From Sphingobium sp. EP60837 (GTDB taxonomy: Bacteria > Pseudomonadota > Alphaproteobacteria > Sphingomonadales > Sphingomonadaceae), in contig NZ_CP015986.1 of assembly GCF_001658005.1 (NCBI RefSeq), positions 186,001-250,000 of the forward strand: a stretch of DNA of 64,000 nucleotides, in the 5' to 3' direction. A program made the position numbers and the translations under genes. The notes under the pieces were generated by a model. The model was given only the letters and a program-made list of their open reading frames with translations. It was not told the origin of the DNA and searched no databases. Positions 24,102-57,424 of this stretch are shown here, in pieces (within the stretch, counting starts at the first letter, position 1; the number at the start of each line of letters is the position of its first letter).

Positions 24102-24638
24102 ATGAAGAAGTTTGTGGCGGCAGTCATTGCCGCGGCGATGCCGCTTGCGCCAGCCAGCGCCTCAACTTGTTGGAAGCCGGTTGCTGTAGAAGCCGCGCAA
24201 ATCCGCGATTTTGAGATGATGCTGATGGTATCCGCGTTGCGCTGCCGCTCCACCGGCAGCAATTTCCTCACAGCCTATAATCGCTTCATCCGCGAAAAGC
24301 GGGAGGCCCTGACACAGGTTAACGATGAACTGCGTGAACATTTCCGCTCGGTGGCTGGGCCTGTCGGTGCGCTGGGGGCCTATGACAATTATGTGACCCA
24401 GCTCGCGAACGTCTATGGGGCGGGAGCCGATGGGCTTGCTTGCCGGGATCTTCAGTCAATCACGGACGCCGCCAACGCGCTGCCTGCGACCCGCTCGGCT
24501 CTGCTGGAACTAGCCGACGCGGCCGGAGTCACCCCTCATTTGTCGGGCGCCCGCTGCGATGTGGTGATGGCGATCGCTGGTAAGGAAGTGGAGAGCAGGG
24601 CATCTGTCGCCGTCGCTGCGCGGGACCCGCAGGACTGA
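24102..24638 (+). CDS. exported hypothetical protein
   Basis: A 178-residue protein with a clear Sec signal peptide (about residues 1-21, cleavage after PASAS). The mature part is mostly helical by composition and has four cysteines (TCWKP, LRCRS, LACRDL, ARCDVV) that could form two periplasmic disulfides. I do not recognise the family. The start is well placed: ATG follows a GGGGG tract. It precedes ahcY with a strong hairpin in between. Confidence 0.7.
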   Translation: MKKFVAAVIAAAMPLAPASASTCWKPVAVEAAQIRDFEMMLMVSALRCRSTGSNFLTAYNRFIREKREALTQVNDELREHFRSVAGPVGALGAYDNYVTQLANVYGAGADGLACRDLQSITDAANALPATRSALLELADAAGVTPHLSGARCDVVMAIAGKEVESRASVAVAARDPQD

Positions 24639-24640
24639 CA

Positions 24641-24708
24641 TAAAGAAAACTTTATATTGAGTTGCCATCAACGGCGGCGATTGGTAAAGCGCAGCCCATC
24701 GCCGCCGT
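24641..24708 (+). terminator. hairpins between the exported protein gene and ahcY
   Basis: ATAAAG-AAAA-CTTTAT (24641-24656) starts just after the stop codon. It is followed by an 11-bp perfect stem ACGGCGGCGAT/ATCGCCGCCGT with a 16-base loop (24671-24708) and GTTTCG. The second stem probably terminates the upstream transcript, but it could also be part of an ahcY leader. I do not see the SAH-riboswitch core. Confidence 0.5.
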
Positions 24709-24758
24709 TTCGCTCGTCGAGCGGCTCCGGCACATTCTAGACCAATGGAGACCCGCTC

Positions 24759-26168
24759 GTGGCCACCGCACCCGCCGCTCAGGCGCAGGATTATGTGATC
24801 GCCGACATCAGCCTTGCCGCTTTCGGCCGCAAGGAAATCGAGATCGCCGAAACCGAAATGCCCGGCCTGATGGCGCTTCGTCAGGAATTTGGCGCTGCCA
24901 AGCCGCTGAAGGGCGCGCGCATCACCGGATCGCTGCACATGACGATCCAGACCGCCGTGCTGATCGAAACGCTGGCCGAACTGGGCGCCGAGATCCGCTG
25001 GGCCTCGTGCAACATCTTCTCGACCCAGGACCATGCCGCCGCCGCCATCGCCGCGCGCGGCATCCCCGTCTTTGCCGTCAAGGGCGAGACGCTGGAAGAA
25101 TATTGGGACTATGTCATCCGCATCTTCGAATGGGGTGACACGACCTGCAACATGATCCTGGATGACGGCGGCGACGCCACCATGTTCGCTCTGTGGGGCG
25201 CGCGTGTCGAAGCTGGGGAAGAGCTGTTCACCCCCGGCAATGAGGAAGAAGAAATCTTCGTCGCGACGCTGAAGCGTTACCTCGCCGAGCGTCCGGGCTA
25301 CCTCACCAAGACCGTCGCCGCGATCAAGGGCGTCTCGGAAGAGACCACCACCGGCGTTCACCGCCTCTATGAACTGGCGAAGAAGGGCAAGCTTCCCTTC
25401 CCGGCGATCAACGTCAACGACAGCGTCACCAAGTCGAAGTTCGACAACCTCTACGGCTGCAAGGAATCGCTGGTCGACGCCATCCGTCGCGCCACCGACG
25501 TCATGCTGGCTGGCAAGGTCGCCGTGGTCGCTGGCTTCGGTGACGTGGGCAAGGGTTCGGCCGCCTCGCTCCGCAACGGCGGCGCCCGCGTGCTGGTGAC
25601 CGAAGTCGATCCGATCTGCGCGCTGCAGGCGGCGATGGAGGGCTATGAAGTCGTGACGATGGAAGAAGCGGCGACCCGCGCCGACATTTTCGTCACCGCG
25701 ACCGGCAATGAAGACGTCATCACCGTCGATCACATGCGCGCGATGAAGAACATGGCGATCGTCTGCAACATCGGCCACTTCGACAGCGAGATCCAGATCG
25801 CTGGGCTCAGCAACATGAAGTGGACGGAAATCAAGCCACAGGTCGATGAAGTCGAATTCGCTGACGGCAAGAAGATCATCGTCCTCGCCAAGGGCCGCCT
25901 TGTGAACCTGGGCTGCGCCACCGGCCACCCGAGCTTCGTCATGTCGTCCAGTTTCACCAATCAGGTGCTGGCGCAGATCGAACTGTGGACCAAGTCGGAC
26001 ACCTATAAGAACGACGTCTATGTGCTGCCCAAGCATCTGGACGAGAAGGTCGCCGCGCTTCACCTTGAAAAGCTGGGCGTGAAGCTGTCCAAGCTGACCC
26101 CCAAGCAGGCCGCCTATATCGGCGTGACCCAGGAAGGGCCATTCAAGCCGGACCATTACCGCTACTGA
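24759..26168 (+). CDS. ahcY: adenosylhomocysteinase
   Basis: Hydrolyses S-adenosylhomocysteine to adenosine and homocysteine, keeping methylation running. Present: [18 protein letters not shown], the NAD-binding motif [16 protein letters not shown], and the active-site block [17 protein letters not shown]. The C-terminal tail ends KPDHYRY, the conserved Lys/Tyr contributed to the neighbouring subunit. The start is GTG 24759, with TGGAG eight bases upstream; 469 residues. It is followed by a strong terminator, so it forms its own transcript. Confidence 0.97.
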
Positions 26169-26180
26169 GCGAACAGGGAA

Positions 26181-26205
26181 GGGGAGGCCAACGCCTCCCC
26201 TTTTT
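26181..26205 (+). terminator. intrinsic terminator of ahcY
   Basis: Perfect 8-bp stem GGGGAGGC/GCCTCCCC with loop CAAC followed by TTTTT, 12 bases after the stop. The remaining 150 bases to divL hold no gene that I can see. Confidence 0.92.
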
Positions 26206-26356
26206 GTTGGTGGCCGCCAGGAGTTGTGGCCGCGCCTCAAGCGTATCAATGATAATTCTTTCCCTCTGACCGCTTCACGCTGCCTGCGAGTTGGGTTAGT
26301 CCCCTGATAATCATGCAAAGGGGCTGGCAGGTCGTGACGAGGGGTAAGCAGACGCA

Positions 26357-28705
26357 ATGACGTCATTGACCCCTCTTGCCGCCACCATATTGGGAATCGT
26401 GCTCGCCGGATGGCTCGCCGCCGGCGTCTGGGCCTTATCGACGGGCCAACGCATGCGGCGAGAAGGGACGCAGGCGCAGGGCAAATTCGACCGCTTGTCG
26501 AGCCTTCTGGCATCCGCGCCCGCTGCGCCCGTCATTATCCATGCCGACGGCCGGATCGAAGCCGCAGATCGCCTGGCCAAATGGCTGGGCAAGGACCGTG
26601 TTCCCACTTTTGTCTCTGAACTGACCGCTTCCGATGGGGGCCTGGAACCAGAGGATGCCGCCGCCCTTGCGCAGGAAATCGCCGCCGCTCAGCGTGCCGG
26701 GCGCAGTTTCGCGCTGCCGGTCCGCGGCGAAGGTTCTTCGCGCCTGCTCCTTGTTCGTGGCGCGCCTGCGGGGCCGGTCCTGGCGGAGAGCGGCGGCGTG
26801 GTCCTCTGGATTTTCGACGCGACCGACAGCCAGTCCGAAATCCAGGCGTTGACGAGCAAGGTTGAGCAATTGCGTGACGCGCTGGAGGCGCTGGCTGGCC
26901 TAGTCGAAGCCGCACCCTTCCCGATGTGGCATCGCACCCCGGACATGCGTCTCAGCCTCGTCAACGCCGCTTATGTCCGTGCGGTGGACGGGGACAATGC
27001 GGCCGACGTTATCGCCCACGGCACGGAACTGGTAGAGGCGGTTGGCGGATTGAGCCCCGAAGCGGCGGCCGAACAGGCGCTTGCAGAAAGCCGCGCTGTA
27101 GAACGGATGGTGCCCGCCACCATCGATGGTGAGAGGCGCACGATGCGCGTCGTGGATGTGCCCCTGGGCGATGCTGGTGTCGCAGGTTTCGCGATGGACC
27201 AGAATGAACTGGAGCAGGCCCGCGTCGAGCATCGCCGCCTGGAAGACGCGCAGCGCGACTTGCTTGATCGTCTTTCCGCCGGCGTGGCGCGCTTCGGCCC
27301 GGACCGGACGCTGCGCTTCTGGAACCAGCCGTTCATGAGCCTGTTCGGCCTTGATCAGGACCATCTTGCCGACCAGCCGGTGTTCGAGCGCGTGCTGGAC
27401 CGCATGCGGGAAGCGCGCCGCCTGCCGGAACATCGCGACTTTCCCGCTTGGCGCGCGGAACGCCGCGAATGGTTCCTTTCGCCCGATCCCCGCGAGGAAA
27501 ACTGGCTGCTTGCCGACGGCACCCATTTACGCGTCTATGCCCAGCCGCTGCCGGACGGCGGCTTGCTCCTCATCTTCGAGGATCGCACCGAGCAGGTGCA
27601 GCTTTCCAGCGCGCGCGACACATTGCTGCGGGTCCGTACCGCGACCTTCGACAATCTGTTCGAGTCGATCGGCGTCTTTTCCTCCGACGGCCGCTTGTCT
27701 CTCTGGAACAGCCGGTTCCGCACGATCTGGGACATTTCCGAAGACCTGCTGGCCCAGCATCCGCGCATCGACGAACTGCTGCGCGCCGTTCAGTCGCGCC
27801 TAGCCAAGCCGCAACAGGCCAACCTCGTTCGCGAACTGGTTCGTGCGGCCACGGTTGAGCGTAAGCAGCGCGTCGGCCATGTCGGTTTTGCGGACGGCCG
27901 CATCTTCGAATTCGCCGCTATCCCGTTGCCTGATGGGAACGCGCTTTTCACCATGCTCGATGTCACCGACAGCCGCCGCGTCGAACAGGTGCTGCGCGAC
28001 CGCAACGAAGCACTGGAGCAGGCCGATCGGGTGAAGACGGCCTTCGTCACCAATATGAGCTACGAATTACGCACGCCCCTCACCACCATCGCGGGCTTCG
28101 CCGAGATGATGAGCGCAGGTTATGCGGGCGAGATCAGCGAGTCGGCGAAGGAATATGTCGATGGTATCTTGCAGAGCACCAACCGGCTCTCGATGCTGAT
28201 CGACAATGTTCTGGACCTGACCCAGGGCGAAGCGGGAACACTGCCGATTGATCGCAGTCCGGTCGATCTTGCCGAATTGGCGAAGGAAAGCGTCGCGCGC
28301 ATCAAGGGCGAAGCCACGGCTAAGGGGATAGACCTGGCCCTATCGCTTCATGAAACGCTGGGCCAAGTCGAAGGTGACCGCCGCAGGATCGGCCAGGCGC
28401 TCGACCACCTGCTGGAAAATGCCGTCTGCTACAGCGGGCGTGGCGCGCGCGTGCTGCTGCATGGCGATGGCAGCGAAGACAGCGCTCGGCTGGTCGTATC
28501 AGATAACGGTCCCGGCATCACGGTTCAGCGTCAGGCAAGCCTGTTCGATGCCGCTGCCCGTGCGGAGCAGGCGCGCAATGGAGAGAAGGCGGGTATCGGC
28601 CTGCCGCTGGCCAAGCAGTTGGCCGAAGCGCACGGCGGAAGCCTGCAACTTGTGTCCGAGCCGGGGCAGGGCACCATGGCCGTGATTGAGCTTCCCCGTG
28701 GCTGA
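26357..28705 (+). CDS. divL: DivL-type cell-cycle sensor kinase with Tyr in place of the phosphorylated His
   Basis: Membrane-anchored PAS histidine-kinase homologue. One N-terminal transmembrane helix (about residues 5-25) is followed by several PAS-like segments to about residue 540, then an HisKA domain whose H-box reads NMSYELRTPL: Tyr569 replaces the usual His. The ATPase domain is complete (N-box LLENAV, DNGPGI, GIGLPLAKQLAEAHGG). This substitution is the hallmark of Caulobacter DivL, which controls CckA and so CtrA in the cell cycle. The length (782) and the downstream neighbours tsaE and a phosphotransferase gene also fit. No strong ribosome site is seen. It overlaps tsaE. Confidence 0.9.
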   Translation: MTSLTPLAATILGIVLAGWLAAGVWALSTGQRMRREGTQAQGKFDRLSSLLASAPAAPVIIHADGRIEAADRLAKWLGKDRVPTFVSELTASDGGLEPEDAAALAQEIAAAQRAGRSFALPVRGEGSSRLLLVRGAPAGPVLAESGGVVLWIFDATDSQSEIQALTSKVEQLRDALEALAGLVEAAPFPMWHRTPDMRLSLVNAAYVRAVDGDNAADVIAHGTELVEAVGGLSPEAAAEQALAESRAVERMVPATIDGERRTMRVVDVPLGDAGVAGFAMDQNELEQARVEHRRLEDAQRDLLDRLSAGVARFGPDRTLRFWNQPFMSLFGLDQDHLADQPVFERVLDRMREARRLPEHRDFPAWRAERREWFLSPDPREENWLLADGTHLRVYAQPLPDGGLLLIFEDRTEQVQLSSARDTLLRVRTATFDNLFESIGVFSSDGRLSLWNSRFRTIWDISEDLLAQHPRIDELLRAVQSRLAKPQQANLVRELVRAATVERKQRVGHVGFADGRIFEFAAIPLPDGNALFTMLDVTDSRRVEQVLRDRNEALEQADRVKTAFVTNMSYELRTPLTTIAGFAEMMSAGYAGEISESAKEYVDGILQSTNRLSMLIDNVLDLTQGEAGTLPIDRSPVDLAELAKESVARIKGEATAKGIDLALSLHETLGQVEGDRRRIGQALDHLLENAVCYSGRGARVLLHGDGSEDSARLVVSDNGPGITVQRQASLFDAAARAEQARNGEKAGIGLPLAKQLAEAHGGSLQLVSEPGQGTMAVIELPRG

Positions 28706-29156
28706 ACCGGCCGTCGCCTTGGCGAATGAAGCGGACATGCTGGCGCTCGGCCGCCGCCTCGCCGATCTGGCGCGCATTGGCGACGTCATCGCGCTGGAAG
28801 GCGGCCTCGGAGCGGGCAAGACGACGCTGGCGCGCGGAATATTGGAAGGGCTGGGCCTCGAAGGGGAAGCTCCGAGCCCCAGCTTCGCCATCGTCCAGCC
28901 CTATGACGTGCCCGAAGTGAAGCTGCCCGTCGCTCATGTCGATCTCTATCGTTTGGATCATGCGGAGGAAGCGGAGGAGCTGGCGCTCGATGACTATCTC
29001 ATGGACAGTCTGCTGATCGTCGAATGGCCCGACCGTTTGGGTCCGGACACCTGGCCCGATGCGCTGCGGCTCCACATCGACATCGAACCCAACGGCGCTC
29101 GGCGCTTGACAGCGCGCGTGCCGGACGCTTGGACGGAGCGATGGTCGCAGATATGA
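28698..29156 (+). CDS. tsaE: tRNA threonylcarbamoyladenosine biosynthesis ATPase TsaE
   Basis: P-loop ATPase needed for the t6A37 modification of ANN-decoding tRNAs. Walker A LEGGLGAGKTTLARGIL, PSPSFAIVQPY and VAHVDLYRLDHAEE are family motifs; about 152 residues. GTG 28698 is the chosen start, overlapping divL by eight bases; a TTG at 28686 is possible. It is translationally coupled to divL and to the kinase gene that follows. Confidence 0.92.
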   Translation: MAEPAVALANEADMLALGRRLADLARIGDVIALEGGLGAGKTTLARGILEGLGLEGEAPSPSFAIVQPYDVPEVKLPVAHVDLYRLDHAEEAEELALDDYLMDSLLIVEWPDRLGPDTWPDALRLHIDIEPNGARRLTARVPDAWTERWSQI

Positions 29157-30139
29157 TCCCGCCCGCCGCCGCTCCCGCGTTCCTCTCAGCTGCAGGGTGG
29201 GAGCGTGCGGCGATCGTTCCGCTGGCGGGTGACGCCTCTTTTCGCCGCTATTTCCGCGTCGTCGATGGCGCCCGCCGCGCCGTGCTGATGGATGCGCCGC
29301 CGCCTCATGAGGATCCGCGTCCCTTCATCGCCATTGCCGAGCATCTGGTGGGGCAGGGTTTTGCAGCACCCGCCATCCTGGCGCGCGATCTTGATGAAGG
29401 CTTGGTGCTTATCGAGGATTTCGGCGACCTGCGGGTCAAGGAACATCTGGACGATCGTCCCGTCGATGAGGTCGAGGTTTATACGCGCGCCGTCGAACTG
29501 CTCGCCGACCTCCACCGCCTGCCCGCCGCAGACTTGCCGCCCTACGACCGCGAAGTGTATCAGCGGGAGGCTGGCCTGCTCACCGAATGGTATTGCCCGG
29601 CCATCGGTCTGCCCGTGAATGCGGACGCCTATGTTCGCGCATGGGACGCTGTGTTGCCGATCGTCGAACAGTCCGCCAGTTCCAGGGTCACCGTGCTGCG
29701 TGACTATCATGCCGAAAACATCATGCTGATCGATCGGCCTGAAGCACGCGGCCTGGGCCTTCTCGACTTCCAGGACGCGCTGGCGGGCCATCCAGCCTAT
29801 GATCTTGTGTCGCTGCTCCAGGACGCCCGGCGCGATGTGCCGCCGGCCGTAGAAGCTGCGATGCTCGACCATTATCGCGTGATCGCCAATCCGCCAGCCG
29901 ACTTCGACGCCGCCTATGCAGTCCTTGGCGCTCAGCGCAATGCGAAGATCATCGGTATCTTCACCCGCCTTTGGAAGCGTGACGGAAAGCCGCGCTATCT
30001 TTCCTTCCTGCCCCGCATGTGGGACTTGCTGGAGCGCGATCTCGCCCATCCCGCCCTTGCGCCGGTCGCAGAATGGTTTGCCGGGAATATCCCGGCAGAC
30101 AAGCGCCATGCCGCTCTTCAGGATCAGGCCCCGGCATGA
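29153..30139 (+). CDS. amgK: N-acetylmuramate/N-acetylglucosamine anomeric kinase AmgK
   Basis: Aminoglycoside-phosphotransferase-fold sugar kinase; AmgK phosphorylates MurNAc (and GlcNAc) at C1 in peptidoglycan recycling. The catalytic loop RDYHAENIM (DxHxxN) and the metal-binding LLDFQDALAGHPAYDL are clear, and the N-terminal GDASFRRYFRV is the family nucleotide loop. It is followed immediately by the matching uridylyltransferase, which makes the assignment much firmer than the fold alone. The start ATG 29153 overlaps the tsaE stop (ATGA); ATG 29141 is an alternative. 328 residues. Confidence 0.88.
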   Translation: MIPPAAAPAFLSAAGWERAAIVPLAGDASFRRYFRVVDGARRAVLMDAPPPHEDPRPFIAIAEHLVGQGFAAPAILARDLDEGLVLIEDFGDLRVKEHLDDRPVDEVEVYTRAVELLADLHRLPAADLPPYDREVYQREAGLLTEWYCPAIGLPVNADAYVRAWDAVLPIVEQSASSRVTVLRDYHAENIMLIDRPEARGLGLLDFQDALAGHPAYDLVSLLQDARRDVPPAVEAAMLDHYRVIANPPADFDAAYAVLGAQRNAKIIGIFTRLWKRDGKPRYLSFLPRMWDLLERDLAHPALAPVAEWFAGNIPADKRHAALQDQAPA

Positions 30140-30846
30140 TCGACACGGCAATGCTGATGGCGGCAGGGCTCGGCAAGCGGATGCGTCCGCTCACGGCGAC
30201 CCGGCCAAAGCCGCTGGTCAAGGTTGCAGGCAAGCCCTTGATGGATCATGCGCTCGCCCGGCTTGCGGCGGGTGGGGTCCGCAAGGTCGTGGTGAACGTC
30301 CATTATCTCGCCGACACCGTGGAGGCGCATCTGCATGCGCAATGCAACGGCATGCAGGTGCTGATTTCCGACGAGCGGGCCAAGCTGCTGGAGACGGGCG
30401 GGGGGCTCATCCATGCCCGGCACCTGCTTGGGGACAAGCCCTTCTTTTGCGCCAATAGCGACAATCTGTGGATCGACGGCCCGCAGGAAACATTGGGCAT
30501 GATGCAGCGCCTGTGGGACCCCGATCGGATGGATGCGCTGCTGTTGCTGGTGCCGCTGGCCAGAGCGCACTGTCATACGGGTCCTGGTGACTTCCACATG
30601 GACGCAACCGGCCATCTCAGCCGGCGCAAACCCGCCCATGTCGCGCCCTTCGTTTTTACAGGTGTGCAGATCCTCTCGCCCAGCCTGCTGGTCGATCCGC
30701 CATCGGACGTCTTCTCCACCAACATTTTCTGGAATCGGGCCATAGAGGCGGGCCGTCTCTATGGCGTATCGCACCAGGGCCTCTGGTTCGATGTCGGCAC
30801 GCCGCGCGCCATTCCGATTGTAGAGTCTATGCTCGCTCATGGGTGA
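30136..30846 (+). CDS. murU: MurNAc-1-phosphate uridylyltransferase MurU
   Basis: Nucleotidyltransferase that turns MurNAc-1-phosphate into UDP-MurNAc, so the cell bypasses MurA, the fosfomycin target. The signature MLMAAGLGKRMRPLTATRPK with KPLVKVAGKPLMDH is at the N-terminus, ANSDNLW carries the metal-binding Asp, and the C-terminal FDVGTPRAI is conserved. 236 residues. Its ATG overlaps the amgK stop (ATGA), and its own end overlaps addB by eight bases. Confidence 0.9.
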   Translation: MIDTAMLMAAGLGKRMRPLTATRPKPLVKVAGKPLMDHALARLAAGGVRKVVVNVHYLADTVEAHLHAQCNGMQVLISDERAKLLETGGGLIHARHLLGDKPFFCANSDNLWIDGPQETLGMMQRLWDPDRMDALLLLVPLARAHCHTGPGDFHMDATGHLSRRKPAHVAPFVFTGVQILSPSLLVDPPSDVFSTNIFWNRAIEAGRLYGVSHQGLWFDVGTPRAIPIVESMLAHG

Positions 30847-33814
30847 TCGCACCCGGCCTGCGTTGTTTAACATCCCGGCGCACCGTGCCTTCTCCGACGC
30901 GCTGGCCGCAGGCATCATCGCCCAGCATGGGGGCGACGCCATGGCTTTGGCACAGGGCATGATCCTGCTGCCGACCAACCGCGCCATCCGCGCGGTCAGC
31001 GACGCCTTTGTCCGCCGGTCAGGCGGTGGATTGCTGCTGCCGCGACTGGTCGCGATCGGTGATCCGGACCTGGGAGAGCAGGCCGGCGGGGCGCTCGATC
31101 CGCTGGGCGAGGGGGAAGCGATCCCGCCCGCGATCGCGCCGATGCGGCGGCAAATGATCCTGGCCCGTATGGTGCAGCAGGCGTCCAGCCCGCCCATCGA
31201 TGCGGCCCAGGCGATCAAGCTCGGACAGGCGCTCGGCGCCGTGCTCGACCAGATGCAGGTGGAGCGGGTGCCCGTCACGGCGCTCGGCGATCTGTCCCTT
31301 TCCGACGAGCTTTCCGGCCACTGGCAGCGATCGCTCGATCTCTTTTCCATCCTCATCCGTCGCTGGCCGGAGGAACTTGCCCGGCTCGGCCTCATCGACC
31401 TTGCCGATCGGCGCAATCGCTTATTTGATCGACTGGCTGCGCGCTGGGGCGAGGAGTCGCCGTCTGGCTTCGTCATCGCCGCAGGGATTGCGACAACAGC
31501 GCCCGCCGTCGCCAGCCTCCTCCGGCAGATCGCAATTCTGCCGCGCGGCAGTGTCGTGTTCGCCGGGCTGGATCAGGAAATGGACGATGTGGCCTGGGAC
31601 GCGATCGGCCCATACCCAGCGGACCCGATCACAGGCCGTGCCCCGGCAGGGCATGAAAGCCACCCCCAATATGCCCTGAAGCGTCTGCTCGACCGGATGA
31701 GCGCGACGCGCGACGATGTGGCGCTGTGGCGCTGGGGCAGCGAGCATGACGCGCGGGCAGTCCGCAACCGCAACATCTCGAACGCGATGTTGCCTCCCCG
31801 CCTCACCAGCCGCTGGCGCGATCTCAAGACGGCCGACCGTTCGCTCGCTGGGGTGGAGGCGCTGGAAGTGGCGACACCCGGTGAGGAAGCGCAGGCAATC
31901 GCTATAGCGTTGCGCGAAGCCATCGAGACGCCGGGCCGCACCGCAGCCTTGGTCACCCCCGACCGTCAACTCGCGACTCGTGTCTCCGCCCACCTGGCGC
32001 GATGGGGCATCGCGGCCGATGATTCCGCTGGTCTGCCACTGTCGCGCCTGCCGCCCGGCACGTTGCTCATCGCTCTTGCCGAAGCGGTGGCGGAACGCTT
32101 CGCGCCCGTTGCCATGCTGACATTGCTGAAACATCCGCTGGTGATGCGCGGCGATCAGCGTTTGCCTTGGCTGGAGGGCGTGCGCGGGCTGGATTTATTG
32201 CTCCGCGGTCCGCGTCCTCCCGCTGGACTCCAAGGCATCGACATTTTGCTCGCCGCGCGGGAGGGAGAGGACCGCCAGCGCAACCTGCGCGCGCAAGTGC
32301 TGCAATGGTGGCAGACAGCCCGCGCGCTGCTCCTTCCCTTGGAGCAGGTCTTCACTACCGCTCCGTCCTTCTCGGCTCAACTCGCCGCGATCCGGGAGCA
32401 GGCCGGGATATTGACCGGCGACGCAGTCTGGTCGGGCGTCCAGGGCCGCGCCGCCGCCGATCTTTTCGCCGAAATGGAGCAGGCCGCCGCTGAAGGGCCG
32501 CAGCAGGCAGATGTCCGCTCGCTCCCGACCCTCCTCGACCATATGCTCGGCGGCCTGTCCATCCGTCCGGTGCAAGGCGGCCATCCCCGTATCGCCATCT
32601 TGGGTCTCATCGAGGCGCAGCTTGTGCAGGCTGACGTCATGATCCTGGGGGGCCTCAACGAAGGCACTTGGCCTGGCCTGCCATCGCCCGACCCCTGGCT
32701 CGCTCCCCGGATCAGGCGGGAGCTTGGCCTTCCGGGGCTTGAGAGCCGTATCGGGCGCGCTGCCCATGACTTTGCGAGCGCGCTCGGCGCTCCCCATGTC
32801 CTCATCACCCGCGCCAGAAGAGGTACGGGAGGACCTGCTGTCGCCTCCCGCTTCTGGCTGCGGCTAAAGGCCATGGCGGGGCCTCAGTGGAAGAGCGCGG
32901 ACCGCTACGCCGCGCTCGCGCAGGCGCTCGACCGTCCAACCAGCCACAAGCCCAGCCGCCGTCCGGCGCCAGTTCCGCCCGGGTCCGTCCGCCCAAAGCT
33001 GATCGCCGTCACCGACGTCGATCGCCTGAAAGCGGATCCCTACGCCTTCTACGCCAAGCGCATCCTGCGGCTGAACCGCCTCGATCCGATCGATGCCGAC
33101 GCGGGGCCGGCATGGCGGGGCACAGCCGTTCATGAAATTCTCCAGCGGTGGGCCGAGGCTGGGCGTCGCGACCCGGCTGATCTTGAAGCTCGTGCCCGCG
33201 CCATGTTCGACCGGCCCGATGTTCACCCGCTGCTCAAGGCCCTGTGGCAACCCCGTCTTATCGAAGCGATCCGATGGATCGCTGTGGAGGTCGCCGCCGA
33301 TCAGGCCGCGGGCCGCACGATCCTAGCCGTGGAAACCGACGGCCGCGCCGATATCGCTGGCGTCACCCTGACAGGCAAGGCCGATCGGATCGATCGCATG
33401 CCGGGCGGCTCGCTCGCCATCGTCGATTACAAGACGGGCAAGCCCCCCAGCGCCAAACAGGTGAAGGCAGGCTATTCGCTGCAATTGGGCCTGCTCGGCT
33501 TGATTGCGGAGCAGGGCGGCTTCCCTGCAATCGATAGTGCGCAGACGGCAGGCTGTTTCGAATATTGGTCGCTCGCCAAGAAGAATGACGCATTCGGTTA
33601 TCGGGACAGCCCGGTTGATCCGATGGGCAAGCGCGACAAGATCGTGACGGCCGACTTCACCTCCTTCGTCCATGCCCGGTTCGAGGAGGTGGCTGGCGCT
33701 TATCTCACCGGCCAGGCTCCCTTCGACGCGCAGGTAAATCCTGAAGTGGCCAGCTATGGCGATTATGACCAGTTGATGCGGCTGGAAGAATGGTATGGGC
33801 GCGACGATGGCTAG
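30839..33814 (+). CDS. addB: double-strand break repair protein AddB
   Basis: Nuclease/helicase-like subunit of AddAB, which resects DNA ends for RecA. The N-terminal half is a degenerate helicase fold without a canonical Walker A. The C-terminal PD-(D/E)xK nuclease has IVDYKTGK near residue 862 with GYSLQLGLLG following. The whole 991-residue protein contains a single Cys, so it cannot hold the four-Cys Fe-S staple known from Bacillus AddB; this fits the alphaproteobacterial form. It starts within the end of murU (8-base overlap) and overlaps addA likewise. Confidence 0.93.
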   Translation: MGDRTRPALFNIPAHRAFSDALAAGIIAQHGGDAMALAQGMILLPTNRAIRAVSDAFVRRSGGGLLLPRLVAIGDPDLGEQAGGALDPLGEGEAIPPAIAPMRRQMILARMVQQASSPPIDAAQAIKLGQALGAVLDQMQVERVPVTALGDLSLSDELSGHWQRSLDLFSILIRRWPEELARLGLIDLADRRNRLFDRLAARWGEESPSGFVIAAGIATTAPAVASLLRQIAILPRGSVVFAGLDQEMDDVAWDAIGPYPADPITGRAPAGHESHPQYALKRLLDRMSATRDDVALWRWGSEHDARAVRNRNISNAMLPPRLTSRWRDLKTADRSLAGVEALEVATPGEEAQAIAIALREAIETPGRTAALVTPDRQLATRVSAHLARWGIAADDSAGLPLSRLPPGTLLIALAEAVAERFAPVAMLTLLKHPLVMRGDQRLPWLEGVRGLDLLLRGPRPPAGLQGIDILLAAREGEDRQRNLRAQVLQWWQTARALLLPLEQVFTTAPSFSAQLAAIREQAGILTGDAVWSGVQGRAAADLFAEMEQAAAEGPQQADVRSLPTLLDHMLGGLSIRPVQGGHPRIAILGLIEAQLVQADVMILGGLNEGTWPGLPSPDPWLAPRIRRELGLPGLESRIGRAAHDFASALGAPHVLITRARRGTGGPAVASRFWLRLKAMAGPQWKSADRYAALAQALDRPTSHKPSRRPAPVPPGSVRPKLIAVTDVDRLKADPYAFYAKRILRLNRLDPIDADAGPAWRGTAVHEILQRWAEAGRRDPADLEARARAMFDRPDVHPLLKALWQPRLIEAIRWIAVEVAADQAAGRTILAVETDGRADIAGVTLTGKADRIDRMPGGSLAIVDYKTGKPPSAKQVKAGYSLQLGLLGLIAEQGGFPAIDSAQTAGCFEYWSLAKKNDAFGYRDSPVDPMGKRDKIVTADFTSFVHARFEEVAGAYLTGQAPFDAQVNPEVASYGDYDQLMRLEEWYGRDDG

Positions 33815-51092: not shown

Positions 51093-51722
51093 ATGAATGG
51101 CGACCAGGCGATGTCCAGCCTCTGGTATGTCCTGGCGCTCGTCCTCGTCGGATCGGCTCTTCTCGCCCGACGCGCGCCCTTGGGCGGCATGCTCCGCATG
51201 GCGCTGCTTTGGGTTATCATCTTCGCTATCCTACTCGGCCTCTTCAAAATGGGTGAGCAGGCCGGCCTTTTTTCGAGCCGGATGAACGGGGTAGGGGACG
51301 GTGCTTCCTCCCCGTCGGCTCCAGAGGCGCCCCTGCCACCCGCGCGTGCAGAGGGGCAAGCGCTGCGGATATCCATCGCACCAGACGGCCATTATTGGGT
51401 GGAAGGAAGCGTCAACGGTACGCCGACACGCTTTCTCATAGACAGCGGCGCCAGCATCACCGCATTGTCGGTCGGTTCGGCGCGAGCCGCGGGGTTGAAC
51501 TTCGATCTTGCCGCACCTGGCGTATCGATGATGACGGCCAATGGGAAGATAGACGCCAAGCGTTCTTCCATTTCCACCCTCGCCATCGGCCCGATCCGTG
51601 CGAGCGATCTGCCGATCGTCATTTCGCCGGCCTTTGGGGAGGTGAACGTCATTGGCATGAACCTGCTTTCGCGCCTGAAAAGCTGGGGCGTGCAGGATGG
51701 TGAGATGGTCCTGACGCCATGA
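51093..51722 (+). CDS. retropepsin-like aspartic protease, membrane anchored
   Basis: Two N-terminal hydrophobic helices (about residues 8-25 and 32-52), a Pro/Ala-rich linker, then a single-lobe aspartic protease domain with the catalytic FLIDSGASITALS and the flap-side IGMNLLSRL. This is the clan AA, TIGR02281-like family; such proteases must dimerise. 209 residues from ATG 51093; ATG 51111 is possible. The protease domain should face the periplasm. It overlaps the transporter gene that follows (ATGA). Confidence 0.85.
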   Translation: MNGDQAMSSLWYVLALVLVGSALLARRAPLGGMLRMALLWVIIFAILLGLFKMGEQAGLFSSRMNGVGDGASSPSAPEAPLPPARAEGQALRISIAPDGHYWVEGSVNGTPTRFLIDSGASITALSVGSARAAGLNFDLAAPGVSMMTANGKIDAKRSSISTLAIGPIRASDLPIVISPAFGEVNVIGMNLLSRLKSWGVQDGEMVLTP

Positions 51723-53020
51723 CCGCGCCGCTCCCTCATCGTCCGCCGACGCAGCGCGAGCGGCTGAAGGCGATCATCGGTGGGTCCACGGGCAATCTGG
51801 TCGAATGGTATGACTGGTATGCTTATGCCGCCTTTACGCTGTATTTCGCCCCGCATTTCTTCCCGAGCGAGGATCGCACCGCGCAACTGTTGAGCGCGGC
51901 CGGCATCTTTGCCGTTGGCTTCCTGATGCGGCCGATCGGTGCCTGGGCCATGGGTGTCTATGCCGATCGTCATGGCCGAAAAAGCGGCCTGACCCTGTCT
52001 GTCGCACTCATGTGCGCCGGGTCGCTGCTCATCGCCGTGACGCCCGGTTATGAGGTGATCGGCGTAGGCGCGCCCCTGCTCCTGGTCGTTGCCCGCCTCA
52101 TTCAGGGCCTCTCGATCGGTGGTGAATATGGCGCCAGCGCGACCTATCTGTCCGAGATGGCTGGCCGCGATAGGCGCGGTTTCTACTCGAGTTTTCAATA
52201 TGTTACATTGATAGCCGGACAGCTTGTTGCAATTTGCGTTCTGCTTGTACTTCAGGGCGTGCTTAGCGACCAACAACTCGACGAGTGGGGCTGGCGCATA
52301 CCCTTTCTGATTGGCGGCGGTCTTGCTGTCATCGTCTTCTGGCTCCGCCGCGGTCTCAGCGAAACGCAAAGCTTTCATGTCGCCAAAGCCGAGTCCGCGC
52401 CCCGGTCAGGCTTCATCGAACTTGTGACGAACCACCCGCGCGAGACACTGACTGTTATGCTGCTCACTGCGGGCGGCACGATCGCATTCTATGCCTATTC
52501 CATCTACATGCAGAAATTCCTGGTCAACACCTCTGGTCTGAGCCGGGAAGCCGCATCGCAAATCAATGGCATAACATTGTTATTTTTCATGATGTTACAG
52601 CCTGTTGCTGGCGCCCTATCGGATCGCATCGGGCGCAAGCCGCTGATGATCGGCTTTGGCGTCCTGGGCGTGCTTTTCACCTATCCCATCTTCGCGACGC
52701 TGGCCGTGACCCGCGATCCGCTGATCGCCGGTCTGCTGGTGATGGCGGGGCTCATCATCGTTACCGGCTACACATCGATCAACGCTGTCGTAAAAGCCGA
52801 GCTTTTCCCGGCGCATATTCGGGCGCTTGGCGTGGCGCTTCCATATGCGCTGGCCAACACGCTGTTCGGCGGCACGGCGGAGTTTGTCGCGCTCTATTTC
52901 AAGCAGGCGGGGATCGAGCAGGCGTTCTACATTTATGTGACGGTGATGATCGGCATCTCGCTGATCATCTACATCCGCATGCGCGACACGCAGCGCCACA
53001 GCCAGATCCGCGAAGACTGA
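51719..53020 (+). CDS. MFS transporter, metabolite:H+ symporter (KgtP-like)
   Basis: Twelve-helix MHS-family organic-acid symporter of 433 residues. Helix 1 NLVEWYDWYAYAAF, loop YADRHGRKSG, helix 5 GGEYGASATYLSEMA and the central loop ALSDRIGRKPLM are seen; alpha-ketoglutarate permease is the nearest named type. It lacks the extra periplasmic loop of the paralogue at 6239. It is the last gene before the dif-like site and the insertion sequences. Confidence 0.88.
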   Translation: MTAPLPHRPPTQRERLKAIIGGSTGNLVEWYDWYAYAAFTLYFAPHFFPSEDRTAQLLSAAGIFAVGFLMRPIGAWAMGVYADRHGRKSGLTLSVALMCAGSLLIAVTPGYEVIGVGAPLLLVVARLIQGLSIGGEYGASATYLSEMAGRDRRGFYSSFQYVTLIAGQLVAICVLLVLQGVLSDQQLDEWGWRIPFLIGGGLAVIVFWLRRGLSETQSFHVAKAESAPRSGFIELVTNHPRETLTVMLLTAGGTIAFYAYSIYMQKFLVNTSGLSREAASQINGITLLFFMMLQPVAGALSDRIGRKPLMIGFGVLGVLFTYPIFATLAVTRDPLIAGLLVMAGLIIVTGYTSINAVVKAELFPAHIRALGVALPYALANTLFGGTAEFVALYFKQAGIEQAFYIYVTVMIGISLIIYIRMRDTQRHSQIRED

Positions 53021-53111: not shown

Positions 53112-53139
53112 ATTTAACATAATATATATTATCGGACAT
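53112..53139 (-). other. dif: chromosomal dif site (XerC/XerD recombination site)
   Basis: Read on the minus strand, the 28 bases are: XerC arm ATGTCCGATAA (53139-53129), centre TATATA (53128-53123), XerD arm TTATGTTAAAT (53122-53112). The XerD arm is identical to that of E. coli dif, the centre differs by one base from E. coli TGTATA, and the XerC arm keeps the CG-ATAA end. It stands in an AT-rich intergenic patch of a GC-rich genome. dif is where XerCD, activated by FtsK, resolves chromosome dimers in the terminus. A chromid or plasmid dif is also possible. The insertion-sequence pair begins seven bases away on the XerC side. Confidence 0.87.
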
Positions 53140-53145
53140 AAGGCC

Positions 53146-54849
53146 TGTAAGCGCCGGATAGAAATGACACCCCTCTGCTAGATAGAAATGACACCCTTGG
53201 GCGTCCTTAGCAGAGCTGGGTGGCATGGTCCTCCTGGCAGTTCGGGAGGACGCGCTTATGACGGTGGTGGCGATGAGCCATGGCGAGCTTTCGCGGTTTG
53301 ATACATTGTCGCGTGTGGATCGCGGCGAACTGCGGGTCGAGGATGCTGCGCAACTGCTGGGCTTGAAGCGCCGGCAGATTTTCCGGTTGCTTGACCGACT
53401 GCGAACCGAAGGCGCTTCAGGCCTGGTGTCGCGCAAGCGTGGTCGGCCGAGCAACCGGCGTCACAGCGATGCCTTTCGCGAGCGCGTCCTTACGATCGTC
53501 CGCACGCATTATGCGGATTTCGGACCGACCCTGGCGCGTGAATATCTGGCGGAACGTCACGACATTTCGGTGGGCTGTGAGACGCTGCGGCAGATGATGA
53601 TCGAGGCGGGAATCTGGCAGGATCGCGCCGCGCGTCGTTCTCGCCCCTATCAACCGCGTCACCGGCGGGAGTGCCGTGGGGAGCTGGTCCAGATTGACGG
53701 TTCGGAGCATGCCTGGTTCGAGACTCGCGGTCCCAAATGCACGCTGCTTGTCTACATCGACGACGCGACCAGCGAGCTGTTGCACCTTAAGATGGTCGAG
53801 AGCGAGAGCACCTTTTCCTACATGGAAGCGACCCGCGAATATATCGAGCAGCACGGCAAGCCGGTGGCCTTTTATTCCGATAAACACACGGTCTTTCGTA
53901 ACCCCAAGGCGACCGCAAAGGGTGATGGGATGACACATTTCGGGCGCGCGCTCGATGCGCTGAACATCGAGATCATCTGCGCCAACTCGCCGCAGGCCAA
54001 GGGCCGGGTCGAGCGAGCCAACGGTACCTTACAGGATCGCCTGATCAAGGCGATGCGCCTGGAAGGTATCTCGTCGATCGAAGAAGCGAACGTCTTTCTG
54101 CCGAGCTACATGGTTGGGCACAATGCGCGCTTCGCTCGTCCGGCCGCAGACAGTCGCGATTTACACCGACCTCTGGCACCGCGGGATGATCTGCGCTCTG
54201 TCATGGTCTGGCGCGAACAGCGGACAGTCACTGCTGCGCTGACGCTGCACTATAACAAAGTTCTGTTCCTCTTGGAGCCGAACCCGTTCAGCAAGGAACT
54301 GGTGCGCAAGCGCGTGGATGTCTGTGAATATCCTGACGGCACAGTCGAGATCCGCCACGAGGGGCGCTCCCTTCCTTACAGCCTGTTTGACAAGATGCCC
54401 CGGATCAATCAACCTGCCATCGTCGATAACAAGCATCTCGACGCGGCACTGGCGCTAGCAAAGGAAATCCAGGCGATCGCGCCGCATCACCGGCAGCGGA
54501 ACAACTATGCCCCTGCTCGCCGCGACCAGCCCGCGCATTTGTTCCCCGAACCGGAGGCGCCGGCGAAGATCGACGGACGCCGGTTGGGCGGGGCAAAGCT
54601 CAAACGTCGTCCCCGGCTCAGCCCGGCGGAGTTACGAGCGCACGGCACGCTCGAGTTCGTGAAGGCGCGCTAAAGCGGTTCTGACCGAGCCCGCTGCCTT
54701 CGCAGCGGGTCCGTGCCCTTCCCCTCCACTGTTACGCCATCAGCAGGGTCTGCGCTGCGCTATCCCGAGGGCTCCACGCAGCCCCTGCTGTCATTAATGG
54801 TGTCTTTTCTATCGGGGACAGATAGTGTCTTCTCTATCCGGTGCGAACA
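53146..54849 (+). mobile_element. insertion sequence, ISNCY/IS1202-type, copy 1 (1704 bp)
   Basis: Bounded by imperfect terminal inverted repeats: the left end TGTAAGCGCCGGATAGAAAT and the complement of the right end TGTTCGCACCGGATAGAGAA. Each end carries two GATAGAnAnGACAC words (left 53157-53170 and 53181-53194; right, inverted, 54825-54838 and 54800-54813), probably transposase-binding sites. The 5-bp direct repeat AGGCC precedes it (53141-53145) and follows it (54850-54854). It holds one transposase gene and, after that gene, a CCCGCTG/CAGCGGG hairpin (54690-54709). Confidence 0.93.
53258..54673 (+). CDS. ISNCY/IS1202-type transposase, copy 1
   Basis: DDE transposase of 471 residues. An N-terminal helix-turn-helix region (ELRVEDAAQLLGLKRRQIFR) is followed by a basic linker and an rve-like catalytic core: first Asp in VQIDGSEHAWF, second in FYSDKHTVFRN, and Glu in KGRVERANGTLQDRL. 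I chose ATG 53258 because GGGAGGA lies seven bases upstream; an ATG at 53225 has no such site. The family name is from memory of similar sphingomonad proteins. The gene is intact, so the element is potentially active. Confidence 0.92.
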   Translation: MTVVAMSHGELSRFDTLSRVDRGELRVEDAAQLLGLKRRQIFRLLDRLRTEGASGLVSRKRGRPSNRRHSDAFRERVLTIVRTHYADFGPTLAREYLAERHDISVGCETLRQMMIEAGIWQDRAARRSRPYQPRHRRECRGELVQIDGSEHAWFETRGPKCTLLVYIDDATSELLHLKMVESESTFSYMEATREYIEQHGKPVAFYSDKHTVFRNPKATAKGDGMTHFGRALDALNIEIICANSPQAKGRVERANGTLQDRLIKAMRLEGISSIEEANVFLPSYMVGHNARFARPAADSRDLHRPLAPRDDLRSVMVWREQRTVTAALTLHYNKVLFLLEPNPFSKELVRKRVDVCEYPDGTVEIRHEGRSLPYSLFDKMPRINQPAIVDNKHLDAALALAKEIQAIAPHHRQRNNYAPARRDQPAHLFPEPEAPAKIDGRRLGGAKLKRRPRLSPAELRAHGTLEFVKAR

Positions 54850-54854
54850 AGGCC
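54850..54854. repeat. AGGCC spacer between the two insertion sequences
   Basis: The same five bases also flank the pair on the left (53141-53145) and right (56559-56563), the pattern expected if a second copy inserted into the target duplication of the first or if the unit IS+AGGCC was duplicated. Confidence 0.9.
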
Positions 54855-56558
54855 TGTAAGCGCCGGATAGAAATGACACCCCTCTGCTAGATAGAAATGA
54901 CACCCTTGGGCGTCCTTAGCAGAGCTGGGTGGCATGGTCCTCCTGGCAGTTCGGGAGGACGCGCTTATGACGGTGGTGGCGATGAGCCATGGCGAGCTTT
55001 CGCGGTTTGATACATTGTCGCGTGTGGATCGCGGCGAACTGCGGGTCGAGGATGCTGCGCAACTGCTGGGCTTGAAGCGCCGGCAGATTTTCCGGTTGCT
55101 TGACCGACTGCGAACCGAAGGCGCTTCAGGCCTGGTGTCGCGCAAGCGTGGTCGGCCGAGCAACCGGCGTCACAGCGATGCCTTTCGCGAGCGCGTCCTT
55201 ACGATCGTCCGCACGCATTATGCGGATTTCGGACCGACCCTGGCGCGTGAATATCTGGCGGAACGTCACGACATTTCGGTGGGCTGTGAGACGCTGCGGC
55301 AGATGATGATCGAGGCGGGAATCTGGCAGGATCGCGCCGCGCGTCGTTCTCGCCCCTATCAACCGCGTCACCGGCGGGAGTGCCGTGGGGAGCTGGTCCA
55401 GATTGACGGTTCGGAGCATGCCTGGTTCGAGACTCGCGGTCCCAAATGCACGCTGCTTGTCTACATCGACGACGCGACCAGCGAGCTGTTGCACCTTAAG
55501 ATGGTCGAGAGCGAGAGCACCTTTTCCTACATGGAAGCGACCCGCGAATATATCGAGCAGCACGGCAAGCCGGTGGCCTTTTATTCCGATAAACACACGG
55601 TCTTTCGTAACCCCAAGGCGACCGCAAAGGGTGATGGGATGACACATTTCGGGCGCGCGCTCGATGCGCTGAACATCGAGATCATCTGCGCCAACTCGCC
55701 GCAGGCCAAGGGCCGGGTCGAGCGAGCCAACGGTACCTTACAGGATCGCCTGATCAAGGCGATGCGCCTGGAAGGTATCTCGTCGATCGAAGAAGCGAAC
55801 GTCTTTCTGCCGAGCTACATGGTTGGGCACAATGCGCGCTTCGCTCGTCCGGCCGCAGACAGTCGCGATTTACACCGACCTCTGGCACCGCGGGATGATC
55901 TGCGCTCTGTCATGGTCTGGCGCGAACAGCGGACAGTCACTGCTGCGCTGACGCTGCACTATAACAAAGTTCTGTTCCTCTTGGAGCCGAACCCGTTCAG
56001 CAAGGAACTGGTGCGCAAGCGCGTGGATGTCTGTGAATATCCTGACGGCACAGTCGAGATCCGCCACGAGGGGCGCTCCCTTCCTTACAGCCTGTTTGAC
56101 AAGATGCCCCGGATCAATCAACCTGCCATCGTCGATAACAAGCATCTCGACGCGGCACTGGCGCTAGCAAAGGAAATCCAGGCGATCGCGCCGCATCACC
56201 GGCAGCGGAACAACTATGCCCCTGCTCGCCGCGACCAGCCCGCGCATTTGTTCCCCGAACCGGAGGCGCCGGCGAAGATCGACGGACGCCGGTTGGGCGG
56301 GGCAAAGCTCAAACGTCGTCCCCGGCTCAGCCCGGCGGAGTTACGAGCGCACGGCACGCTCGAGTTCGTGAAGGCGCGCTAAAGCGGTTCTGACCGAGCC
56401 CGCTGCCTTCGCAGCGGGTCCGTGCCCTTCCCCTCCACTGTTACGCCATCAGCAGGGTCTGCGCTGCGCTATCCCGAGGGCTCCACGCAGCCCCTGCTGT
56501 CATTAATGGTGTCTTTTCTATCGGGGACAGATAGTGTCTTCTCTATCCGGTGCGAACA
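54855..56558 (+). mobile_element. insertion sequence, ISNCY/IS1202-type, copy 2 (1704 bp)
   Basis: A second copy in the same orientation, with the same length and ends as copy 1; I found no base difference in the parts that I compared. The repeat unit is 1709 bp. Its right end abuts AGGCC (56559-56563) and then the mazG upstream region. Confidence 0.93.
54967..56382 (+). CDS. ISNCY/IS1202-type transposase, copy 2
   Basis: Encodes a protein identical over its whole length to copy 1, with the same GGGAGGA ribosome site and the same DDE residues. Being downstream of copy 1 in the same orientation, it could be reached by read-through transcription unless the hairpin behind the first transposase gene stops it. 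Confidence 0.92.
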   Translation: MTVVAMSHGELSRFDTLSRVDRGELRVEDAAQLLGLKRRQIFRLLDRLRTEGASGLVSRKRGRPSNRRHSDAFRERVLTIVRTHYADFGPTLAREYLAERHDISVGCETLRQMMIEAGIWQDRAARRSRPYQPRHRRECRGELVQIDGSEHAWFETRGPKCTLLVYIDDATSELLHLKMVESESTFSYMEATREYIEQHGKPVAFYSDKHTVFRNPKATAKGDGMTHFGRALDALNIEIICANSPQAKGRVERANGTLQDRLIKAMRLEGISSIEEANVFLPSYMVGHNARFARPAADSRDLHRPLAPRDDLRSVMVWREQRTVTAALTLHYNKVLFLLEPNPFSKELVRKRVDVCEYPDGTVEIRHEGRSLPYSLFDKMPRINQPAIVDNKHLDAALALAKEIQAIAPHHRQRNNYAPARRDQPAHLFPEPEAPAKIDGRRLGGAKLKRRPRLSPAELRAHGTLEFVKAR

Positions 56559-56635
56559 AGGCCGTTGCCCTATAACCGGACCCCTCCGCCAACTTCAATC
56601 TTCTCGCTATTTCATTCATCAATTCAGGACCGCCC
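56559..56635 (+). promoter_or_regulatory. mazG upstream region with a -10-like TATAAC
   Basis: TATAAC at 56571-56576 is a good -10, with a 60-base leader to the mazG ATG, but no -35 is visible at 16-18 bases upstream because the insertion sequence ends there (56558). The original -35 region now lies 3.4 kb away, left of the IS pair. Confidence 0.35.
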
Positions 56636-57424
56636 ATGACTTCTGAGACAAAGGCAAGCCCCGCCGACATCATGCCGCTCGCCAATGTCATGGCCCGACT
56701 TCGCGATCCTGAAACCGGCTGCCCCTGGGACATTCAGCAAGACTTCGCCAGCATTGCGCCCTACACGATAGAAGAAGCCTATGAGGTCGCTGACGCCATC
56801 GAGCGCAACGACATGCCCGCGCTCCGCGACGAGCTGGGCGATCTCCTGCTACAGGTTGCCTTCCACAGCCGAATGGCGGAGCAAGCGGGTCATTTCACGC
56901 TTCAGGACGTGATTGATGGCGTCACTGAAAAGATGATCCGCCGCCACCCGCACATCTTCGGCAACGGCATTCCGCGCGAACATGGCCACGCCCAATGGGA
57001 AGCCATCAAGGCCGCCGAACGCGCCGGTCTCGATCCGGACGGCAGCGCGCTTGCGGGAGTCGCCCAAGCGCTGCCCGCGCTACTCCGCGCCGAAAAGCTC
57101 CAGAAGCGCGCTGCCCGAACTGGCTTTGATTGGCTTGACACTCAGGGCGTCCTCGCCAAGATCGAGGAAGAACTGCAGGAAGTTCATGAGGCAGCCTCCC
57201 CACAAGAACATCATGAGGAAATCGGCGACCTGTTGTTCGCCGTGGTCAACCTCGCCCGCCACCTCAAGGTCGATGCCGAAACCGCACTCCGCTCCGCCAA
57301 CGCCAAGTTCGAGTCACGCTTCCGGGTGATGGAAGAGATCGCAGGCGAGGAATTTGACGCTCTGCCGCTCGATGACAAGGAGGAGCTTTGGCAACGAGCC
57401 AAGCGCCGATTGGCCGAGCAATAA
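56636..57424 (+). CDS. mazG: nucleoside triphosphate pyrophosphohydrolase MazG
   Basis: Hydrolyses (d)NTPs to NMP and PPi, cleaning nucleotide pools. Two MazG domains are present: N-terminal with CPWD, EEAYEVADAIE and RDELGDLLLQVAFH, and C-terminal with EELQEVHEA and HEEIGDLLFAVVNLARH. 262 residues, full length. It converges on hflX with only seven bases between their ends. Its promoter region has been reshaped by the insertion sequences. Confidence 0.95.
   Translation: MTSETKASPADIMPLANVMARLRDPETGCPWDIQQDFASIAPYTIEEAYEVADAIERNDMPALRDELGDLLLQVAFHSRMAEQAGHFTLQDVIDGVTEKMIRRHPHIFGNGIPREHGHAQWEAIKAAERAGLDPDGSALAGVAQALPALLRAEKLQKRAARTGFDWLDTQGVLAKIEEELQEVHEAASPQEHHEEIGDLLFAVVNLARHLKVDAETALRSANAKFESRFRVMEEIAGEEFDALPLDDKEELWQRAKRRLAEQ

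Follow-up and report, generated by a model that had tools for sequence, protein, structure and literature searches.

The dif site of the main chromosome of Sphingobium sp. EP60837 and its adjoining insertion sequences

A stretch of 64,000 nucleotides from Sphingobium sp. EP60837 (C1:186001-250000, hereafter the window) was analysed around a dif-like sequence. The best explanation of this region, with a probability of about 0.94, is the dif site of the main chromosome with adjoining copies of a dif-hunting insertion sequence (IS) of the IS1202/ISAjo2 type. The initial annotation had proposed a chromosomal dif at this position, and the site is indeed a correctly called, ordinary chromosomal dif, itself of an already known kind. 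The value added beyond that call lies in the dif-hunting transposons and in the genus-wide pattern of dif centres and flanks.

The dif site and its replicon

On the minus strand the site reads ATGTCCGATAA-TATATA-TTATGTTAAAT, giving 28 bp in an 11+6+11 layout with a GC content of 18%, and its inner 14 bp, ATAATATATATTAT, form a perfect palindrome. Reading of the bases bore out the initial annotation with respect to the 28-bp sequence, its coordinates, layout and AT-richness, and its intergenic place between the end of the upstream gene at 53020 and the start of the first IS at 53146 (Table 1). The XerD arm is identical to that of E. coli dif, as the initial annotation had stated. The site is flanked on one side by an MFS transporter gene and on the other by two IS followed by mazG. 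When the DNA of the dif region was compared with plasmids, three records were found, all of which aligned only within the MFS-gene part.

Table 1. Features of the dif region (positions in the window)
Feature	Position	Strand	Details
GC-skew turning point	24001-32000		positive to the left, negative to the right; about 23 kb from dif
MFS transporter gene	51719-53020	+	XerD-side neighbour of dif
Chromosomal dif	53112-53139	-	XerC arm ATGTCCGATAA 53129-53139; centre TATATA 53123-53128; XerD arm TTATGTTAAAT 53112-53122
Target duplication AGGCC (5 bp) beside IS copy 1	53141-53145		base 53140 separates AGGCC from the XerC arm
IS copy 1	53146-54849	+	1704 bp; starts 6 bp off the XerC arm
Transposase of IS copy 1	53225-54673	+	482 aa; NCBIfam transpos_ISNCY_2, 499 bits (cut-off 250)
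AGGCC between the IS copies	54850-54854		
IS copy 2	54855-56558	+	same as copy 1 in 1704 of 1704 bases
Transposase of IS copy 2	54934-56382	+	protein identical to that of copy 1
Third AGGCC, outer flank of IS copy 2	56559-56563		
mazG	56636-57424	+	nucleoside triphosphate pyrophosphohydrolase; XerC-side neighbour of dif

The full 28-bp pattern, searched with up to three mismatches, matched once in the window and not at all in 100 dinucleotide shuffles of it. The initial annotation had proposed a scan of the whole genome, with many copies or a better site on the same replicon speaking against the call; the same search gave a single match in 4,261,696 bases, and the reversed control pattern gave none. 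A relaxed 15-letter arm pattern, also allowing three mismatches, matched 20 places in the genome compared to 21 for its control, so that only its best matches are informative. The dif site has one mismatch to this pattern and all other places on C1 need three, leaving no better dif on C1.

The assembly comprises four contigs, C1 (2,669,660 bases), C2 (1,130,726), C3 (269,215) and C4 (192,095), each of which was assumed to be one circular replicon. C1 was taken as the main chromosome because it is the largest contig and carries the best matches to DnaA (at 1,093,481) and to the FtsK gamma domain (at 1,505,040; 92.5 bits), together with the two strongest XerC/D-like genes (at 682,431 and 982,516; 258.8 and 204.4 bits to TIGR02225). 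A third relative, at 175.5 bits, was found on C2. Both recombinases of C1 fell short of the 329.6 bits set as the NCBIfam XerD cut-off, and the assignment of one to XerC and the other to XerD is therefore presumptive. The terminus, which had been ascribed to the main chromosome or a chromid, is thus that of the 2.67-Mb main chromosome.

A change of GC skew near 53 kb had also been anticipated. The skew does turn inside the window, but at about 24-31 kb, and the cumulative peak near C1:216 kb is offset by about 23 kb (0.9% of C1) from dif at C1:239.1 kb. PMC2731167 places dif 17.8 kb from the skew peak in Novosphingobium aromaticivorans and, in Rickettsia prowazekii, 32.8 kb from it, and differences within 0.00-1.39% of the genome are mentioned in PMC3025954. 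The KOPS motif GGGNAGGG was counted in about 350 kb sampled out of the 2,670 kb of C1, giving 44 plus and 4 minus in the half-circle to the left of dif and 11 plus and 41 minus to the right (Fisher p 2e-13). Between 150 and 290 kb of C1, once the motifs of the IS copies had been excluded, the best polarity cuts were at about 237.5-243.5 and 245.5-247.5 kb (27 of 33 motifs agreeing); dif falls within these cuts and the skew peak outside them. The KOPS-like motifs in the IS copies, one in each (54716 and 56425, minus strand), are both directed to dif. In sparse 10-kb samples with 0-6 motifs each, the polarity turned again between 1.36 and 1.49 Mb. By these samples the position opposite oriC put forward in the initial annotation is indicated only roughly, the exact antipode of dif being 1.57 Mb. 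Given the published offsets of similar size and the KOPS reversal, the terminus reading stands.

By analogy with E. coli and Vibrio, XerC would bind arm ATGTCCGATAA and XerD arm TTATGTTAAAT. In a chromosome dimer, septal FtsK would track KOPS toward dif and activate XerD, and XerC and XerD would make one crossover over the 6-bp centre, restoring monomers. The site shares with the dif/XerCD/FtsK system of E. coli the length of 28 bp, the 11+6+11 layout, the conserved XerD arm, the intergenic place and the KOPS reversal, the skew turn lying about 23 kb away. Among proteobacterial dif sites (Carnoy & Roten 2009, PMC2731167), that of N. aromaticivorans, AGGATTGATAA TAATCA TTATGTAAATA, is close to it. 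It differs from known dif sites in the TATATA centre, which makes the inner 14 bp palindromic, and in the distance of the skew turn. Among open-licence papers, none was found with Sphingobium and 'dif site' together, and none on dif in sphingomonads was among the matches listed.

Insertion sequences beside the dif site

Two identical tandem IS copies, absent from the initial annotation, occupy positions 53146-56558. Each is bounded by TGT...ACA and has imperfect terminal inverted repeats of 25 bp (80% complementary), with a second copy of an inner repeat near each end. Residues D158, D219 and E263 of the transposase were invariant in an alignment of seven sequences, and a PDB sequence search with this protein returned nothing at E 1. 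The pair are best explained as dif-hunting transposons of the IS1202/ISAjo2 type, and their position, orientation, duplications, stacking and genus-wide regularity were seen directly. Mechanistically, the DDE transposase would recognise dif, or Xer proteins on dif, and the IS would insert in one orientation 6 bp off the XerC arm, producing the 5-bp duplication. Repeated insertion would then stack copies in tandem with the newest nearest dif. Since the 28 bp of dif are left intact, the site should still work.

In Acinetobacter, the ISAjo2 group of the IS1202 family lies 5 bp off the XerC arm of dif and pdif sites (Harmer, Pong & Hall 2023, PMC10132070). According to the same source, relatives of the group elsewhere have target duplications (TSDs) of 3-5 bp. 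Transposases of the family are marked by relatedness to TnpAjo2 (25-56% among members) and by a TnsB-like fold. The IS described here resemble the ISAjo2 group in the TGT...ACA ends, the imperfect inverted repeats of about 25 bp, the inner repeat near each end, the 5-bp TSD, the single DDE-type transposase and the fixed orientation on the XerC side of dif. They are larger (1704 bp and 482 aa, compared to 1.5 kb and 441-457 aa), and their spacing from the 11-bp XerC arm is 6 (or 7) bp rather than the 5 bp of Acinetobacter, with 16-17 bp in some Sphingomonas relatives. They also differ in forming tandem stacks at one dif and in that the dif-like site of every contig is marked. The transposase was assigned to NCBIfam ISNCY, and kinship with the ISAjo2 group was judged by the features of the element.

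Dif-like sites in the genome and the genus

An exact inner-arm pattern of 13 letters, ATAA-N6-TTATGTTAA, gave one site each on C1, C2, C3 and C4 and no others in the genome. With the 15-letter pattern the best matches were the C1 site (one mismatch), C2:35975 (one), C3:200205 (two) and C4:51596 (two), and three further places with two mismatches were found on C2. The central hexamers are TATATA on C1, TAAGGA on C2, TAGTAA on C3 and TAACAG on C4. All five copies of the transposase in the genome adjoin a dif-like site, two on C1, two on C2 and one on C4. On C2 the dif-like site is followed by a 79%-identical relative and then by a copy identical to the C1 IS, with CGGCC before, between and after them; this order and the triple CGGCC show that the stack there grew through repeated insertion at one target.

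KOPS polarity also reverses at the C2 site, with counts of 35/5 to the left and 5/17 to the right (p 5e-7; 266 of 1,131 kb sampled). No polarity was detected on C3 (5 plus/6 minus left, 14 plus/18 minus right; 156 of 269 kb sampled) or on C4 (4 plus/11 minus left, 6 plus/10 minus right; 92 of 192 kb sampled). FtsK-dependent xrs sites on large plasmids (PMC11724359) and KOPS and dif on large extrachromosomal replicons (PMC13342612) have been described. The dif-like sites on four contigs and the KOPS polarity of C2 agree with such systems, whereas C3 and C4 differ from them in the lack of polarity in the samples. The gene beside the C2 site did not prove to be a general chromid anchor, matching in 11 of 61 genomes at E 0.001; its identity was at least 84% in five of these 11, the genome under study included.

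At the C3 site a lone IS-like end, CGCTTACA, lies 6 bp off the XerC arm (L016 8203-8260, G000:C3; read there as TGTAAGCGGTGGATTCTAAATC). No transposase match accompanied it in the adjoining 2.4 kb or anywhere on C3. Its core, TAGAATCCACC, recurs at the sites of G022:C4, G020:C29 and G035:C82, and ends with this core perhaps belong to another dif-hunting element.

Across the genus, the inner-arm pattern was present in all 61 genomes searched, at 146 sites, and its control matched once in all. In the 60 genomes where mazG was found, a dif-like site lay within 6 kb of it in 46 and within 20 kb in 48 (mazG-address sites). The transposase query returned 64 matches in 23 of the 61 genomes. When matches covering at least 430 residues were considered, 27 of 31 had a dif-like site no more than 4 kb away, and these 27 shared one orientation. 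Three of the remaining four (G055:C213, G008:C64 and G042:C25) had no site, and each was within 240 bp of a contig end. The fourth, at G058:C5:1237707, adjoined no more than a half site, TTATGTAACTG, which stands in the XerD register. This IS (L117, G058:C5:1237707-1239152) is 345 kb from the dif-like site of its contig, in register with a TTATGT half-site, at the apparent end of a short-chain dehydrogenase gene, and is a possible off-target insertion.

The terminal tetramer TACA was found outside the XerC arm at a distance of 6 bp at 37 sites and 7 bp at 11, a total of 48 of the 138 dif-like sites with sufficient flank, and once in all at the 28 other offsets between 0 and 29; the 138 sites are not all independent, because some come from related genomes and others, the three of G004 for example, are duplicates. 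At 36 of the 48 mazG-address sites no IS-type TACA end was present. In addition, 80 named loci were kept out of at least 555 relatives, some loci being records of the same genomes. Among the listed loci with enough upstream DNA, 46 of 77 had a dif-like site with at most one mismatch within 330 bp upstream, compared to none of the 77 for the reversed control pattern at up to two mismatches. In these 46, TACA was at 6 or 7 bp in 35, at 5 bp in one, only at 16-17 bp in eight and in two it was not found.

The 16-17 bp spacing, observed in L167, L168, L177, L187, L189, L191, L192 and L208, mostly Sphingomonas, is about one helical turn beyond 6-7 bp, and two loci have both. In several loci of Caulobacterales, Microvirga and Bosea, the sequence found at 6-7 bp resembles, by eye, a lineage variant of dif. 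On the other side of the site, 11 of 136 dif-like sites have the motif ACTGTCCATGTAAACTGT, or a near match, starting exactly 11 bp past the XerD arm. In G021:C1 (L248 2468-3778) a motif of this type is followed by a 420-aa protein of the phage-integrase family, so that the XerD side of dif may serve as a docking place for another type of element. Two contigs had unusual complements of sites. G049:C1 (3.65 Mb) has three (1328787, 2235870 and 2530190), whose centres are TAAGGA, TGTTAC and TATATC, as would follow from a fusion of replicons. In G018, C1 is the contig with mazG but lacks any site of the exact inner-arm pattern, and the chromosomal dif of this genome must differ from the pattern or have moved.

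It is possible, if doubtful, that targeting is determined by the XerD half-site, alone or with XerD on it, read at a fixed distance, and not by XerC as proposed for ISAjo2. The G058 insertion would fit this, as it keeps TTATGTAACTG in the XerD register at a spacing of 6 bp without a dif-like XerC arm. So would L178 (Croceicoccus), with TTATGTGAAAT, a poor XerC arm and 6 bp, and two ISKpn65 sites in Table 8 of PMC10132070, where TTATGT is present and the XerC part is hardly conserved. Such cases are few, however, and XerC may bind poor arms cooperatively; the authors of PMC10132070 themselves suggested XerC. Three Sphingomonas loci (L188, L193 and L196), which may represent one inherited event, keep TTATGTTTACC and lack a dif-like XerC arm; at a distance of 15 bp, however, their TACA falls out of the 6-7 bp register.

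It is very improbable that the C1 site is a pdif of a mobile element or plasmid, carried by or made with the IS copies, and that the true chromosomal dif lies elsewhere, even though IS copies flank the site and pdif sites are known to have IS1202-type neighbours (PMC10132070). Neither the IS ends nor the TSDs enclose the site, KOPS reverse around it and C1 holds no better candidate; the conserved mazG address, mostly free of IS-type TACA ends, led to rejection of this explanation. The terminus and intergenic DNA tolerate insertions, but it is hardly credible that the IS stand beside dif by chance or through such tolerance, given that all five copies in the genome adjoin a dif-like site, that 27 of the 31 long transposases of the genus do so in one orientation, that TACA keeps to 6 or 7 bp at 48 of 138 sites, and that dif-like sites recur upstream of the named relatives and not in their control.

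Central hexamers and XerD-side flanks

Divergent dif centres on non-homologous chromosomes are known (Val et al. 2008, PMC2533119; PMC2731167, section 7), and the 2008 authors reasoned that chromosomes with the same centre would be open to fusion through Xer recombination (PMC2533119). The replicons studied here likewise each have their own central hexamer. They differ from those systems in that this reaches contigs of 269 and 192 kb, and in that the hexamer at one address varies by species among the relatives and is swapped in one pair.

The 146 sites had 29 centres, the most frequent being TATATA (47), TAAGGA (19) and TATATC (19). All centres were different in 42 of the 48 genomes having more than one site. 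Over all 146 sites, equal centres within a genome numbered 10, compared to 20.0 ± 4.0 after shuffling (27 of 5000 shuffles as low). In 20 near-complete assemblies (57 sites) there was one, compared to 6.3 ± 2.3 (48 of 10000 as low). This sole repeat, in G032, involved two stretches identical at 100% (709 bp) and 99.5% (600 bp), one of them with a contig end 3.4 kb away. Equal centres were not depleted among the 99 sites of the 61 genomes that have a centre other than TATATA (9, compared to 7.0 ± 2.5). Shuffling of the mazG-address centre over 38 genomes gave three equal, compared to 5.8 ± 1.8, with 985 of 10000 shuffles as low.

At the 48 mazG-address sites the centre was TATATA in 31, TAAGGA in 11, TATACA in two and four others once each. 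Where the address had TAAGGA (11 genomes with other sites), TATATA was found elsewhere in five and TAAGGA in none. Where it had TATATA (21 genomes), TAAGGA was found elsewhere in six, the genome under study included, and TATATA in none (Fisher p 0.002, on 5/0 and 0/6). A quick tree was built from mazG DNA with 49 rows, of which 45 had a state, mazG of G014, G043 and G016 being outside it; on this tree the centre changed at least 14 times. Between TATATA and TAAGGA eight changes were needed, of which at least four were forced by starred branches. Clustering of these two centres on the tree was not beyond that of shuffles (114 and 119 of 500 as low).

The 100 bp past the XerD arm were compared for 139 of the 146 sites, seven at contig ends being left out. 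Pairs of a mazG-address site and another site scored at least 25 in 15 of 64 cases within genomes compared to 80 of 4160 between genomes (p 4e-12). Four genomes were then set aside: G032 and G004, in which both sides are identical, and G021 and G040, with a flank that bears an integrase in the former and is cut by a contig end in the latter. Without them, 11 of 58 within-genome pairs remained (p 2.5e-8); the C2/C4 pair of G007, with a score of 20.5, was not counted. The eleven genomes are G001, G002, G008, G012, G013, G014, G019, G028, G030, G035 and G039. Starting at the XerD arm, their shared blocks run for 48-164 bp and are 85-100% identical; the centres differ, and no match was seen on the XerC side, where for G008 and G028 only about 145 bp of one side could be compared. 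In nine of the eleven, the partner in the same genome was the best match of all compared sites; in G012 and G019 the best foreign chromosomal flank was slightly better.

The pair G013 and G014 is the one in which centres are swapped reciprocally between two addresses, the block tracking the genome and not the address. The second address has orthologous neighbours in both, with ORFs 81-98% identical, some in overlapping frames. A mere dispersed repeat was considered for the XerD-side block and rejected, as in G014 the whole 77 bp was matched only by the two dif sites (40 of 59 first-look candidates scored). The tail of the block, CTGTCCAACTCGCTGTC, is dispersed, with tens of copies in several genomes including G013, G014, G001, G012 and G032; in G013, 40 + 38 copies were counted compared to 4 + 5 for the control. 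In the genome of the window this tail was not found at up to two mismatches, and the shared block with swapped centre was not seen there either.

Tentatively, the main chromosome and the second large replicon of Sphingobium could repeatedly exchange DNA at dif, the hexamers moving between addresses and seldom being equal in one cell. Under this reading a block of 50-160 bp starting from the XerD arm would become alike within one genome and differ from species to species. Most simply, Xer recombinases would form Holliday junctions between replicons, these would branch-migrate to the XerD side, and equal centres would be selected against, since they would fuse the replicons. The odds of this are lowered by the state of the assemblies: G001, with three contigs, is near-closed, but the other ten of the eleven are drafts with some 30 contigs or more, in which the second contig is a presumed separate replicon. 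Alternatively, the second replicon may have repeatedly captured the chromosomal dif end, both sites may lie on one replicon, for which the ten draft assemblies leave room, or the shared blocks may be assembly errors. Exchange between replicons at dif was not found in print among open-licence papers.

In this organism, dif is the anchor of the terminus in a genome of four contigs, and each large DNA molecule of a single cell can have its dif-like site tagged by dif-hunting transposons. The IS ends offer a practical tag for locating dif sites and for work on how the Xer complex is read by a transposase. The genus provides a natural test set for the 2008 idea that cohabiting replicons need different dif centres. 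Should closed genomes bear out the swapped hexamers and the shared blocks on the XerD side, these would be evidence of recombination between a chromosome and a second replicon at dif in nature.
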